Source: Fibrobacter sp. (GTDB taxonomy: Bacteria; Fibrobacterota; Fibrobacteria; Fibrobacterales; Fibrobacteraceae). Taken from it: a DNA stretch of 33,488 bases. Numbering within the stretch: the first letter of the stretch is position 1; each line of letters starts with the position of its first letter. A model generated the notes under the pieces. The model ran no database searches, was not told the origin of the DNA, and saw nothing but the letters and a program-made list of their open reading frames with translations. The stretch spans positions 1 through 33,488 of the forward strand of contig JAISUZ010000025.1 of NCBI GenBank assembly GCA_031271785.1, in the 5' to 3' direction. Positions 13,046-32,028 of this stretch are shown here, piece after piece. The translations under genes and the position numbers were made by a program.

Positions 13046-13680
13046 AACGAATGGATCTGCCGGCAAATAGGGCAGTTTTCCGGAATATGACCGAGGGCTT
13101 TACAGTAGTTTCTGCCGAAGTAAATCAATTGCAAATGGAGCTTTTCCCAGTCTTTTTTAGGGAATAAACGCTTTAAATCTTTCTCCGTTTCCACCACATT
13201 TTTTCCGCTCGAAAGCCCCCAGCGGGCCGCGAGCCGGTGAATGTGCGTGTCCACGGGGAACGCAGGAATTTTAAACGCGTGCATCAGAACCACGCTTGCG
13301 GTTTTATGCCCAACGCCCGGGAGCAATTCGAGTTCCTCAAAAGTGGAAGGCACCAGCCCTTTGAAATCCGAAATCAATTTTTGAGAAAGCAGGAGAATAT
13401 TCTTGCTTTTGGTGAGAGAGAGTCCGCAGGAATGAATCACGGATTGAATCTTTTTTTGAGACAGCTTCACCATTTTTTCCGGAGTATCGGCGAGCTGAAA
13501 AAGAACGGGAGTGACCGCGTTCACGCGCTTGTCCGTACACTGCGCCGAAAGTAAAACGGCAATCAGCAGCGTGTAAGGATCTTTAAATGAAAGCGGAATT
13601 TCGGGGTTCGGGTAAAAATGATCCAGCGTTTTCCGGATAAAACGCACTTTCTTTTTTAACCGGGCATCTTCTTCATTCAT
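13042..13680 (-). CDS. nth: Endonuclease III-like DNA glycosylase/AP lyase
   Basis: 212 residues. Removes oxidised pyrimidines and cleaves the abasic site in base excision repair. The helix-hairpin-helix [15 protein letters not shown] carries catalytic Lys126, and [15 protein letters not shown] carries catalytic Asp144. The C-terminal iron-sulfur loop is incomplete: Cys193, Cys203 and Cys206 are present with C-x9-C-x2-C spacing, but the fourth position (residue 212) is Phe and the protein ends there. It overlaps the cysE end by 4 bases and the uxs stop by 3 bases, convergent. Confidence 0.93.
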
Positions 13681-14462
13681 TGGAAACAGCGGTTGAATTT
13701 CTGTTCCATGCTGTGACTCGGTGTATCTTCTTCCGGGATACCCACTTGTACCGCGGGCACTCCGGCATAGGTTGTGTGCGGCGGAACATCGTCTAAAACC
13801 ACCGCGCCGGCGCCGATTTTTGCGCGGTCGCCGATCGTAATGTTTCCGAGAAGCTGAGCATGCGCGCCGAGCAGCACTCCGTTCCCGATTTTCGGGTGAC
13901 GGTCGCCGATTTCGTTACCGGTGCCGCCGAGCGTCACTCCGTGAAGAATCGAAACATCGTTACCGACTACGGCGGTTTCTCCGATCACAATACCTGTCGC
14001 GTGATCCATTAAAATACCGTGTCCGATTTGTGCCGCCGGGTGAATATCAACCCCGAGTTTTTGACTCGAACGCGATTGAAGCATTTTCGCAAGAAAACGC
14101 TCCTCATTTTTCCAAAACTCATGAGCAATCCGGTGAATCTGCACCGCATGAAAACCTTTGTAAAATAAAATCGAATCCAGCGGATTACTGCAAGCCGGAT
14201 CTCGGTTTTGAATCGCGCAAATATCAAGAATCGCCGTATCCACAATGTCCGGATTTTTTTCAAGAACATCCTTAAAAGTCCGGTCGAAGTCTTCATAAGA
14301 AAAGAACTCCCCGCAAAGTTGAACAGCGAGCGTTTTCGCAAGAATCTCCGAAAGCGTTTTCGGTGTGAGAATAAACTCATTCAGCATTTTAGCCGTCATT
14401 GGGTGAGACTTCACCAAAAGTTCGGCATCCTGTTTTAATTGTTTTGTCAGAGTTGCATTCAT
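13677..14462 (-). CDS. cysE: Serine O-acetyltransferase
   Basis: 261 residues, full-length CysE of the enterobacterial type. Acetylates serine with acetyl-CoA to O-acetylserine, the acceptor used by CysK. The N-terminal helical domain contains CAIQNRDPACSNPLDSILFYKGFHAVQIHR; the left-handed beta-helix hexapeptide repeats follow (GVDIHPAAQIGHGILMDHATGIVIGETAVVG, LHGVTLGGTG). Ends with a flexible tail of Glu/Asp/Ser, as usual for CysE. The start lies 2 bases after the stop of orf124, and nth overlaps the 3' end, so the order orf124-cysE-nth looks like one operon. Confidence 0.96.
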   Translation of the reverse strand: MNATLTKQLKQDAELLVKSHPMTAKMLNEFILTPKTLSEILAKTLAVQLCGEFFSYEDFDRTFKDVLEKNPDIVDTAILDICAIQNRDPACSNPLDSILFYKGFHAVQIHRIAHEFWKNEERFLAKMLQSRSSQKLGVDIHPAAQIGHGILMDHATGIVIGETAVVGNDVSILHGVTLGGTGNEIGDRHPKIGNGVLLGAHAQLLGNITIGDRAKIGAGAVVLDDVPPHTTYAGVPAVQVGIPEEDTPSHSMEQKFNRCFQ

Positions 14463-26868: not shown

Positions 26869-27276
26869 TTATTTTTTCGGCATCAAATCCGAAAGTTTCG
26901 TTGAATCTATGTAATCGTTGATGGTTTCGTGCAAACCTTTCCAAAAACGGAGCGTTCTGCAAGAATGCTGCCGGTCACAGGAGTTAAAATTGCTTTCAAG
27001 GCAAGCTACCGGCGCGAAATTCCCTTCGATCGCCCGCAGAATTTCTCCGACGGAATAATCTTCGGGCGCTTTCGTGAGCACATAGCCGCCTTGCGCGCCG
27101 CGAACACTCCGGAGCAAGCCCGTTTTTGTCAGGTGAGTGACAATTTGTTCCAAATATTTCGTGGAAATTTTCTGCCGCTCCGAAACATCTTTCAGCGCGA
27201 CACATTTTTCATTGCCCTGCTCGGCTATATCAATTATCATGCGAAGGGCGTACCGACCCCGGGTTGAAATTTTCAT
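26869..27276 (-). CDS. Rrf2-family transcriptional regulator (CymR/IscR-like)
   Basis: 135 residues. Winged-helix start MKISTRGRYALRMIIDIA, recognition region ISTKYLEQIVTHLTKTGLLRSVRGAQGGY and the dimer helix, all Rrf2 hallmarks. Cys92, Cys100 and Cys106 sit where IscR has its iron-sulfur ligands (C92, C98, C104), so cofactor sensing is possible; CymR itself lacks them. It overlaps the 3' end of the cystathionine enzyme gene by 4 bases, so the two are cotranscribed and the regulator probably controls sulfur amino acid genes, its own operon included. Target sites are proposed at 28469, 29757 and 31061. Confidence 0.9.
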   Translation of the reverse strand: MKISTRGRYALRMIIDIAEQGNEKCVALKDVSERQKISTKYLEQIVTHLTKTGLLRSVRGAQGGYVLTKAPEDYSVGEILRAIEGNFAPVACLESNFNSCDRQHSCRTLRFWKGLHETINDYIDSTKLSDLMPKK

Positions 27277-28421: not shown

Positions 28422-28468
28422 AGAAAACTTCCTTTTCGGGGCACAAGATAGTAATTTTTCTCGAAAAC

Positions 28469-28490
28469 ATAGTATTTATATAGGAAAAAT
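28469..28490. promoter_or_regulatory. Proposed Rrf2 operator upstream of the cystathionine enzyme gene
   Basis: The 22 bases here end TATTTATATAGGAAAAAT and match the site at 29757-29778 at 21 of 22 positions. On the minus strand the sequence overlaps a possible -10 (TACTAT) about 50 bases upstream of the start codon. A related sequence covers the cysK start region. Regulator assignment is inferred from gene context. Confidence 0.55.
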
Positions 28491-28564
28491 ATCTGAAATT
28501 AAACCGGTTGAAGAAACCGGATTTGCTTTTTCATGGTAATGCTCCCCAAAACATAAAAAATGGA

Positions 28565-28735
28565 TAAAAAAACCTGCCGGGGAATTAAAATTTCTCCCGG
28601 CAGCTCCCTTTCGCTTGGCGAAAGGGACCGGGCTCGCATTTTGCCAAGCAGCAAGCTGCTGAACAAAACGGAGCCGCTCTCGCTATAGCGCGCGTCTCCG
28701 CCCATACGGGTGGAGATCCCTGCTGCAGAAACAAT
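28565..28735 (-). other. Highly structured spacer, possible small RNA or repeat, ending in a minus-strand terminator
   Basis: Three strong hairpins: CTGCCGGG (28574-28581) / CCCGGCAG (28596-28603); a perfect 10-base stem TCCCTTTCGC (28605-28614) / GCGAAAGGGA (28618-28627) with a 3-base loop; and AGCAGC (28647-28652) / GCTGCT (28655-28660). On the minus strand the first hairpin is followed by TTTTTTT, a canonical terminator. There is no minus-strand gene upstream of it, so it is either a non-coding transcript, an attenuator leader, or a dispersed repeat. The 68-codon frame across it is not credible. Confidence 0.5.
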
Positions 28736-28807
28736 GTTTTACAATTCTCAATTTTAGATATTATCTTTTATTTGAAATCTTTATAAAAAAATTAAGAGAA
28801 ACCTATC

Positions 28808-29704
28808 ATGCCGCACCATCATCACGATCATCATTCTTCACCGGCTGAAAAAAGTAATATCGGGCTTGCGTTTTTCCTGAATTTATCGTTTACCGTTATT
28901 GAATTGATCGGCGGTTTTTTAACCAATAGCGTCGCTATTATTTCGGATGCGGTTCATGATTTCGGCGACAGTTTATCGCTTGGGCTCGCGTGGTATTTTC
29001 AAAAACTGTCCCGGAAAGGGAGTTCGAAACATTTTTCTTACGGTTATAAACGTTTTTCGCTTTTAGGAGCTATTATCAACTGCATTATTCTCGTTGTCGG
29101 CAGCATTTATATTCTGTCGGAAGCGATTCCCCGCTTATTTGCGCCGCAGGAGACAAACGCCAAAGGAATGTTTCTCCTGGCTGTTTTCGGAATTGTTGTT
29201 AACGGCATTGCCGTACTGCGCACGCGCAAAGCAAAGTCCATTAACGAAAGAGTGATTTCGCTGCATTTGCTCGAAGATGTTTTGGGCTGGGCGGCGGTTT
29301 TATTGGGTTCGGCAGTCATGTATTTTACCGGTTGGACGATTATTGACCCGATTCTTTCCCTGTTCATCGCTTGTTTTGTGTTATTCAATGTTTTTAAAAA
29401 TATTAAACTGGTGCTGCCGATTTTGCTGCAAGGTACGCCGGCGGAAATCGATCAGGAAAGCATCGCTCAAAAATTGAAGGAATTTAAAAACGTAGCGAAC
29501 ATCCATGATTTGCATATATGGTCGTTAGATGAAGAATACGCGGTTCTCACCGTTCATATTCGCCTGAATGAAAATTTGTCGATGGAAAAGCTCGCGGAAT
29601 TGAAAAGTCAAATTCGTTCCGTTCTCGAAAAAGAAAAAATACCTCATGCCACTATTGAATTTGAAATGCCGGATGAAAAATGTGTTTTTGAGGAATGCAT
29701 TTAA
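28808..29704 (+). CDS. Cation diffusion facilitator (zinc/cobalt-type exporter)
   Basis: 298 residues. His-rich N-terminus (MPHHHHDHH) typical of zinc CDFs, then six predicted membrane helices, ending with a soluble C-terminal metal-binding domain from ~residue 205 (IHDLHIWSLDEEYAVLTVHI). Metal-site residues are visible in SDAVHDFGDSLSLG (helix II) and HLLEDVLGW (helix V). It exports divalent cations in exchange for protons across the inner membrane. It stands alone between the two arms of the sulfur cluster. TTTACA (28738-28743) and TTATCT 17 bases on are a candidate promoter. Confidence 0.93.
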   Translation: MPHHHHDHHSSPAEKSNIGLAFFLNLSFTVIELIGGFLTNSVAIISDAVHDFGDSLSLGLAWYFQKLSRKGSSKHFSYGYKRFSLLGAIINCIILVVGSIYILSEAIPRLFAPQETNAKGMFLLAVFGIVVNGIAVLRTRKAKSINERVISLHLLEDVLGWAAVLLGSAVMYFTGWTIIDPILSLFIACFVLFNVFKNIKLVLPILLQGTPAEIDQESIAQKLKEFKNVANIHDLHIWSLDEEYAVLTVHIRLNENLSMEKLAELKSQIRSVLEKEKIPHATIEFEMPDEKCVFEECI

Positions 29705-29756
29705 AAGGAAGATTTTTATTGGGAATTCCTTAAATTTTCTTGAATTTTTCAAATTC

Positions 29757-29778
29757 ATACTATTTATATAGGAAAAAT
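29757..29778. promoter_or_regulatory. Proposed Rrf2 operator over the patB promoter
   Basis: Second copy of the motif at 28469, with the same TATTTATATAGGAAAAAT end. TTGAAT (29740-29745) and TTTATA (29763-29768), 17 bases apart, are a plausible promoter, and the motif covers the -10. It lies 59 bases before the patB start. Confidence 0.55.
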
Positions 29779-29836
29779 GTTTTATATTTTCGGCGGAATT
29801 TTCAGCGCTGTTATTCCGTAAAAATAAAGGAAAAAT

Positions 29837-31009
29837 ATGGAAGATTTTAACTTCGATACCGTTCAGGAAAGAAAGAATACGAATTCTATTAAATACGATT
29901 TTGCCGTTGCCCGCGGGAAACGCGAAGGGCTTTTACCGCTTTGGGTAGCGGATATGGATTTTCAAACGCCGCCGGAGGTGAGGGAAGCTCTTGTGAAGTG
30001 CGCCGAACATGGGATTTTCGGTTATTCCGAACCGCAGGCGGGGTATTATGAGGCGGTTTGCGCCTGGTTCTCGAAGTATTTCGGTTACGATACCAAACCG
30101 GAGTGGATTGTCAAAACGCCGGGCGTGGTTTTTGCCATTGCGGTAGCGGTGCGGGCTTTTGCCGAAAAAGGCGATGCGGTTATGATTCAGCGCCCGGTTT
30201 ATTATCCGTTTTCGGCGGTGATTCTTGAAAACAAATGCAAACTTGTCAATAATCCGCTCGTATATCAAGACGGAAAATACGGGATTGACTTTGAAGACTT
30301 TGAACGGAAAATGGTAGAAAACCGTGTGAAACTTTTTATTTTGTGTAACCCGCATAATCCTGTCGGCAGAGTCTGGACCCGGGAAGAATTGGAGAGGATA
30401 GGGGATATCTGTTTGAAACACGGCTGTCTGGTGCTTTCCGATGAAATTCACTGTGATTTTGTTTATGCTCCTCGGAAGCATACGGTTTTTGCAACGATCA
30501 AACCGGAGTTTGGGGAAAACTCCATTATCTGCACGGCGCCGAGCAAAACCTTTAATCTGGCGGGTTTACAGGTTTCCAACGTTTTTATCCAGAATGCAAA
30601 ACTCAGGAAAAGATTTGAAACGGAATCAATCAAAACAGGTTACTCACAACTGAACACTATGGGAATAGCCGCCTGCGAAGCGGCTTACCGTCACGGAAGC
30701 GGGTGGCTTCACAGGTTGAAAGAATACCTCTCCGAAAATATTAAACTGGTGGGGGAATTTGCCGAACGAAACGGAATTAAGTTAATCCCGACAGAGGGAA
30801 CTTATTTGGTGTGGCTTGATTTTTCTCCGCTTGGTTTTTCCGATGACGAACTGGATCACTTGATTGAAAATAAAGCGGGTTTGTGGCTCGACGACGGGCG
30901 TATGTTCGGTAAAGAAGGTTCCGGTTTTCAGCGTATCAATGTGGCGTGCCCGCGTTCGATTTTAGCAGACGCGCTTTCCCGGTTGGAAAAAGCGATAACC
31001 GGAAAATAA
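29837..31009 (+). CDS. patB: PatB/MalY-type C-S lyase (cystathionine beta-lyase)
   Basis: 390 residues, class I/II fold aminotransferase-like. PLP Lys237 lies in APSKTFNLAGLQ; LPLWVADMDFQTPPEV near the N-terminus, FGYSEPQAGYYEAV, CNPHNPVGRVW, LSDEIHCDFVY and QRINVACPRSIL are MalY/PatB hallmarks. It splits cystathionine (or cysteine) to homocysteine or sulfide, pyruvate and ammonia. AGGAAAAAT precedes the ATG. Located between the CDF gene and cysK, 86 bases upstream of the latter. Confidence 0.93.
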   Translation: MEDFNFDTVQERKNTNSIKYDFAVARGKREGLLPLWVADMDFQTPPEVREALVKCAEHGIFGYSEPQAGYYEAVCAWFSKYFGYDTKPEWIVKTPGVVFAIAVAVRAFAEKGDAVMIQRPVYYPFSAVILENKCKLVNNPLVYQDGKYGIDFEDFERKMVENRVKLFILCNPHNPVGRVWTREELERIGDICLKHGCLVLSDEIHCDFVYAPRKHTVFATIKPEFGENSIICTAPSKTFNLAGLQVSNVFIQNAKLRKRFETESIKTGYSQLNTMGIAACEAAYRHGSGWLHRLKEYLSENIKLVGEFAERNGIKLIPTEGTYLVWLDFSPLGFSDDELDHLIENKAGLWLDDGRMFGKEGSGFQRINVACPRSILADALSRLEKAITGK

Positions 31010-31027
31010 AAAAAACGGAAATATCGT

Positions 31028-31081
31028 TTGACAGTATTTGTTTTATAAACTATCTTACAATTCATATAGTTTTACTATGAA
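31028..31081 (+). promoter_or_regulatory. cysK promoter with overlapping dyad
   Basis: TTGACA (31028-31033), 17-base spacer, TATCTT (31051-31056): the best promoter in the window. Just downstream, at the expected start point, lies a near-palindrome TTCATATAG...ACTATGAA (31061-31081). Its reverse complement, CATAGTA-N4-TATA-GAA in outline, matches the sites at 28469 and 29757. A repressor bound here would block initiation. Confidence 0.65.
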
Positions 31082-31095
31082 ATAAAGGAAGTATT

Positions 31096-32028
31096 ATGGC
31101 AATCGCAAAGAAACTCACAGACCTGATCGGGAACACACCGCTTCTCGAACTTGGCAACTATTCAAGCAAAGCCGGTGTGAAAGCGCGCCTCGCGGCAAAA
31201 CTCGAATACTTCAACCCGCTCGGCAGCGTGAAAGACCGTATCGCCTTTGCGATGATCGAAGCTGCAGAACGTGCCGGCAAGATCAACAAAAATACGGTGA
31301 TTATTGAACCGACCAGCGGAAATACCGGGGTAGGACTTGCGTTTGTTTGTGCCTCTAAAGGTTACCGTTTGATTCTTGTGATGCCCGAAACCATGAGCGT
31401 AGAGCGCCGCCGTTTGGTGAGTGCGCTCGGCGCGGAACTCGTGCTGACCGAAGGCGCTAAAGGCATGAAAGGCGCGATTGCGAAAGCGGAAGAACTCGCG
31501 AAGGAGAACCCCGATTCGTTTATCCCGCAACAGTTTGAAAACCCGGCGAACCCGGAAATTCACCGCAAAACAACCGCCGAAGAAATTTGGCGGGACACAA
31601 ACGGCGAAGTGGCGGCATTTGTGGCGGGCGTTGGAACGGGCGGAACGCTTACCGGTGTGGGCGAAGTCTTGAAAGCAAGGAATCCGAACGTGAAAATTTT
31701 TGCCGTGGAACCGTTCGATTCTCCGGTGCTTTCGGGCGGCGCGCCGGGGGCGCATAAAATTCAAGGCATCGGCGCGGGGTTTGTGCCGAAGGTATTGGAC
31801 GTTAAAATCATTGATGAAATCATCAAGGTGAAAAACGAAGAAGCCTTTGCGGCTTCTCGCGCCCTCGCGAAAACGGAAGGTTTGCTTGTTGGGATTTCCT
31901 CGGGCGCGGCAACGTTTGCAGCTACAGAAATTGCAAAACGTCCCGAGTTCGCCGGAAAACTCATTGTGGTGCTTCTTCCGGATACCGGCGAGCGTTACCT
32001 CTCGACTTCGCTTTTTACCGAAGAATAA
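31096..32028 (+). CDS. cysK: Cysteine synthase A (O-acetylserine sulfhydrylase)
   Basis: 310 residues. Combines O-acetylserine with sulfide to give cysteine. PLP Lys46 in [23 protein letters not shown] for PLP phosphate and substrate; [49 protein letters not shown] near the C-terminus. Family length is normal. AAGGAAG lies 5 bases before the ATG. The substrate comes from CysE, encoded at 13677-14462. Confidence 0.97.

Follow-up and report, generated by a model that had tools for sequence, protein, structure and literature searches.

A conserved set of predicted operators in a Fibrobacter sulfur gene cluster, most likely those of the cluster-encoded Rrf2 protein, a regulator of CymR/IscR type

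The window, that is, the whole stretch of DNA analysed (33,488 nucleotides of Fibrobacter sp. contig JAISUZ010000025.1), contained sulfur genes clustered with a gene for an Rrf2 regulator, and the locus raises the question of whether three similar sites lying before these genes are operators of that regulator. The original prediction had proposed this, together with a small sulfur regulon, and the proposal was supported by conservation and genome-wide specificity. It is highly probable that the three dyads are operators of a dimer of the cluster's Rrf2 protein, which most likely represses patB, cysK, and its own operon under ample cysteine and is released once cysteine, or the dependent iron-sulfur (Fe-S) status, declines. 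The computation supports the sites with their common geometry, their specificity within the genome, their retention 5' of the same genes in relatives, and the predicted link to Rrf2; control is most likely by repression (not activation), with cysteine acting upstream as the variable.

The three sites and the genes around them

The genes and the predicted promoter of the cluster were as follows:
26869..27276, minus strand: rrf2, Rrf2 regulator of 135 amino acids with Cys25, Cys92, Cys100, and Cys106, assigned by domain and curated-family scores
27273..28421, minus strand: cystathionine gamma-lyase/synthase-type PLP enzyme (Cys_Met_Meta_PP), leading the operon that includes rrf2
29837..31009, plus strand: patB, PatB-family C-S lyase (TIGR04350, 468 bits against a cut-off of 340)
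31028..31056, plus strand: predicted cysK promoter TTGACA-17-TATCTT, by consensus match only
31096..32028, plus strand: cysK, cysteine synthase A (TIGR01139, 467 bits against a cut-off of 351)

The predicted operators were as follows:
28467..28485, no strand: operator 1, ACATA-GTATTTATA-TAGGA, centre about 55 bp 5' of the start codon of the cystathionine enzyme-rrf2 operon (minus strand)
29755..29773, no strand: operator 2, TCATA-CTATTTATA-TAGGA, centre about 73 bp 5' of the patB start codon
31062..31080, no strand: operator 3, TCATA-TAGTTTTAC-TATGA, centre about 25 bp 5' of the cysK start codon

The start of rrf2 and the stop of the upstream cystathionine-enzyme gene overlapped by 4 bases. 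The score of that enzyme reached none of the equivalog cut-offs that would fix its exact reaction. A cation efflux gene sits between sites 1 and 2. A serine acetyltransferase gene (13677-14462) in the same window had no operator of this type nearby.

The near-identity predicted for 28469-28490 and 29757-29778 was confirmed, with 21 of 22 bases matching, and these were the sole two matches in the window at up to 3 mismatches (0.00 expected from shuffles). Searched for as a 23-mer, with 3 mismatches allowed, the two sites had no further copy elsewhere in the 2,279,514-base genome. The third site (31061-31081), described earlier as a related dyad, indeed contained a perfect dyad, TCATA-N9-TATGA. 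The 22-bp outline proposed for all three, CATA-(G/C)TA-N4-TATA-(G/T)GAA, was incompatible with site 3 (CATA-TAG-TTTT-ACTA-TGAA) and was abandoned. A 19-bp dyad, WCMTA-N9-TAKGW, was common to all three sites and gave 3 matches in the window against 0.10 expected, with at least 3 matches in none of 100 shuffles. This pattern was defined with the sites already known, so that a motif derived independently from relatives is the stronger test.

The resemblance of the sites might also be due to chance, or to AT-rich promoter DNA having been duplicated locally, with no protein binding them. They do lie in AT-rich intergenic DNA, and the longer identical stretch in sites 1 and 2 could be a recent duplication. 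This explanation is nevertheless very improbable given the shuffle expectation above, the perfect dyad at site 3, which lacks that long identity, and the selection of the same three positions by a motif from other genomes (below).

Operator 3 begins 6 bp downstream of the predicted cysK -10 element, and since the predicted promoter ends at 31056, the operator would cover the likely transcription start. At sites 1 and 2 the promoter scan gave nothing above its threshold; the expectation that all three sites overlap a core promoter therefore held for cysK only, where a consensus-match promoter stands beside operator 3. Rfam matches in the window comprised two tRNAs only, so no known T-box or S-box explains the control of these genes.

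Conservation and genome-wide specificity

The long motif returned nothing useful as a query in relatives, where the degenerate dyad succeeded instead. Genomes of the same family carried the operator 5' of cystathionine enzyme-patB genes (loci L141, L142, and L143) and 5' of cysK (L115 and L116). In genome G058, TCATA-N9-TATGA stood 44 bases 5' of the cysK match in a cysK-cystathionine enzyme-patB cluster, and rrf2, whose product was 70% identical to the window Rrf2, was preceded by a site with one mismatch. The operator also preceded rrf2 itself at many loci. Conservation before the same genes, the check set by the original prediction, was thus found for cysK, cystathionine enzyme-patB, and rrf2, and no clear site was found in three relatives that carry orthologs (G057, G059, and G026). 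A like site (L061:2200, 16.9 bits) lay 5' of a methylenetetrahydrofolate-reductase-like gene, which may be a target in the methionine pathway.

Rrf2 orthologs were also gathered from relatives and public genomes, mostly Clostridial metagenome-assembled genomes, and many adjoined cysK or an O-acetylhomoserine-sulfhydrylase-like gene. The top exact dyad, ACCTA-N9-TAGGT, occurred in 18 of 94 promoter regions of Rrf2, cysK, and related genes (0.03 expected), a set in which the site of a divergent rrf2/cysK or rrf2/sulfhydrylase pair counts for two promoters and which includes the three window promoters, none with this exact dyad. A palindromic matrix was built from 40 distinct sites, each counted once and the window left out. 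With this matrix the three sites took ranks 1 to 3 of all positions in the window at 10.8, 10.2, and 6.9 bits, followed by a position at 5.8. Operator 2 was the top-scoring position, and operator 1 was in the top three with every window-free matrix. Site 3 was weaker with the Clostridia-trained matrix, and its 6.9 bits taken singly would be indistinguishable from shuffles (median best 6.8). Ten split-half tests matched about half of the held-out promoters and almost no shuffles, and placed sites 1 and 2 in the window's top three in 10/10 tests and site 3 in 7/10. Target promoters, 27.8 kb in all, held 49 high-scoring sites, against 13 in 692 kb elsewhere.

With a matrix from the relatives' sites, the three window operators scored 24.3, 18.8, and 17.5 bits and the next position 6.5, with mild circularity from two G058 sites chosen with the window-derived pattern. 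A covariance model of the relatives' sites, without base pairs, was run on the 2.28-Mb genome, where it scored 150 of 516 candidates and returned only the three window sites at E <= 10, so that the motif was not met at random places in that search. Across the genome the loose dyad showed no enrichment (12 places, compared with 16 for a reversed control), and the core letters alone are therefore insufficient. A sequence at L103:2510 (G000 contig 95, near 79,330), GTCGCATATAAGAACAATAGGTTAT, scored 10.0 bits with the 40-site matrix and was absent from the later model search. In the stretches of the genome read, L210:4326 was the sole other match of that strength beyond the window sites.

The candidate binder

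The window Rrf2 scored 132.8 bits against Pfam PF02082 (cut-off 30) and 136.1 bits against TIGR00738 (cut-off 73.3), which places it in the Rrf2 superfamily, and it was the only Rrf2 gene product found in the genome by Pfam search. It fell under the NCBIfam equivalog cut-offs of CymR (118.5 against 195) and IscR (126.2 against 207.55). The closest relative of the protein (70% identity) came from another family of its phylum, and identities within its own family did not exceed 56%, a pattern that suggests horizontal transfer or hidden paralogy.

Another sulfur regulator might bind the dyads, with rrf2 merely one of its targets; an example is the LysR protein encoded beside rrf2 in several relatives, some of which have the operator 5' of the adjoining LysR gene. 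Cysteine genes are under LysR control in other Firmicutes (PMC2940859). No such LysR gene was found at E <= 1e-20 in this genome or in G058, though both carry the sites, and LysR was rejected as the binder in this genome. The measured operators of SifR/HypR are 19-bp palindromes of 5-N9-5 geometry, TGTAA-N9-TTACA (PMC9218516). The window sites share this Rrf2 operator geometry and differ in the letters of the half-sites, and SifR/HypR differ from the window Rrf2 in having other cysteines and in responding to quinones and hypochlorite. The geometry, the operator before rrf2 at many loci, and the missing LysR gene make another binder improbable and the cluster's Rrf2 the best candidate.

In the proposed mechanism, an Rrf2 dimer made from the second gene of the operon would sit on or beside the promoters when cysteine is abundant, would repress the cystathionine enzyme-rrf2 operon, patB, and cysK, and would dissociate on a fall in cysteine or in the Fe-S status dependent on it. 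CymR works in a complex with CysK, sensing O-acetylserine. Candidate routes for the signal here would be a cluster or metal held by Cys92, Cys100, and Cys106, which are conserved, thiol chemistry, or CysK and O-acetylserine as for CymR.

Cysteines of the regulator and the Fe-S connection

Cys92, Cys100, and Cys106 had been described as placed like the cluster ligands of IscR. The cysteines are real and conserved, being kept in 77 of 79 distinct orthologs, but their placement differs: the spacing is C-x7-C-x5-C where IscR has C-x5-C-x5-C-x2-His, and the position of IscR His107 is Leu109 (orthologs mostly Leu, His in 0/79). The position of NsrR Asp8 was Arg in all orthologs aligned (ligand positions of IscR and NsrR from PMC9218516 and PMC5411485). 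Judged by alignment, the window Rrf2 belongs to a three-cysteine Rrf2 subgroup that lacks His107, the fourth ligand of IscR. Cys25 aligned with the oxidation-sensing Cys25 of Staphylococcus aureus CymR and was found in 3 of 79 orthologs.

The CymR proteins of Bacillus subtilis and S. aureus share the Rrf2 fold and are among the nearest solved structures, but the aligned CymR chains lack the three C-terminal cysteines, Cys25 of S. aureus having its counterpart in the window Rrf2. CymR represses cysteine genes, including cysK (PMC3828012), and the window has predicted operators 5' of cysK and other sulfur genes. An Fe-S cluster is not bound by CymR (PMC9338935). IscR of Escherichia coli shares the fold, and its three cysteines lie in the connector region as they do in the window Rrf2. 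Its operators stand before Fe-S assembly genes, some of which are also preceded by the present operator in Clostridial relatives; the predicted targets here are cysteine genes. Two Clostridial Rrf2 genes, those of Cpe1786 and CAC2236, resemble the window rrf2 by description, being tied to cysteine limitation and to cysK or isc genes. Cpe1786 was proposed to connect the supply of cysteine with Fe-S assembly (PMC2940859) and CAC2236 to act as CymR (PMC3828012); the available parts of these two papers report no test of binding by either protein.

Strong operators (24-32 bits) were found at Clostridial loci 5' of sufC (L052:5042) and of nifS-type cysteine desulfurase genes (L043:5912 and L079:8119). 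In addition, the gene immediately after rrf2 encoded a desulfurase in L034, L039, and L066; in L065 it was sufC. No good operator was found near the sufB, sufC, and sufS genes of this genome. A joint role in cysteine and Fe-S metabolism is hence plausible for the family and, for this genome, a candidate only.

One possible but doubtful reading is that Rrf2 binds the sites and senses Fe-S cluster status, as IscR does, the cysteine genes being controlled as suppliers of cluster sulfur. The retained cysteines and the operators before Clostridial sufC and nifS-type genes would agree with it, while the operator-free suf genes of this genome, the missing His107 and Asp8, and the score under the IscR cut-off argue against it. 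Tentatively, the three-cysteine Rrf2 proteins may be a widespread subgroup, neither CymR nor IscR, that uses a cluster with a ligand set other than that of IscR and so couples cysteine synthesis to Fe-S assembly; both arms would then be under its control in Clostridia, this lineage having narrowed to cysteine genes with a change of the half-site from CCTA to CATA.

The operator and its regulon are predicted for a large Rrf2 subgroup of gut and rumen Clostridia and this lineage. No characterised member of the three-cysteine subgroup was found in the literature searched. A link between cysteine production and Fe-S demand was suggested for Clostridium perfringens and left open there (PMC2940859); one protein may balance the two.
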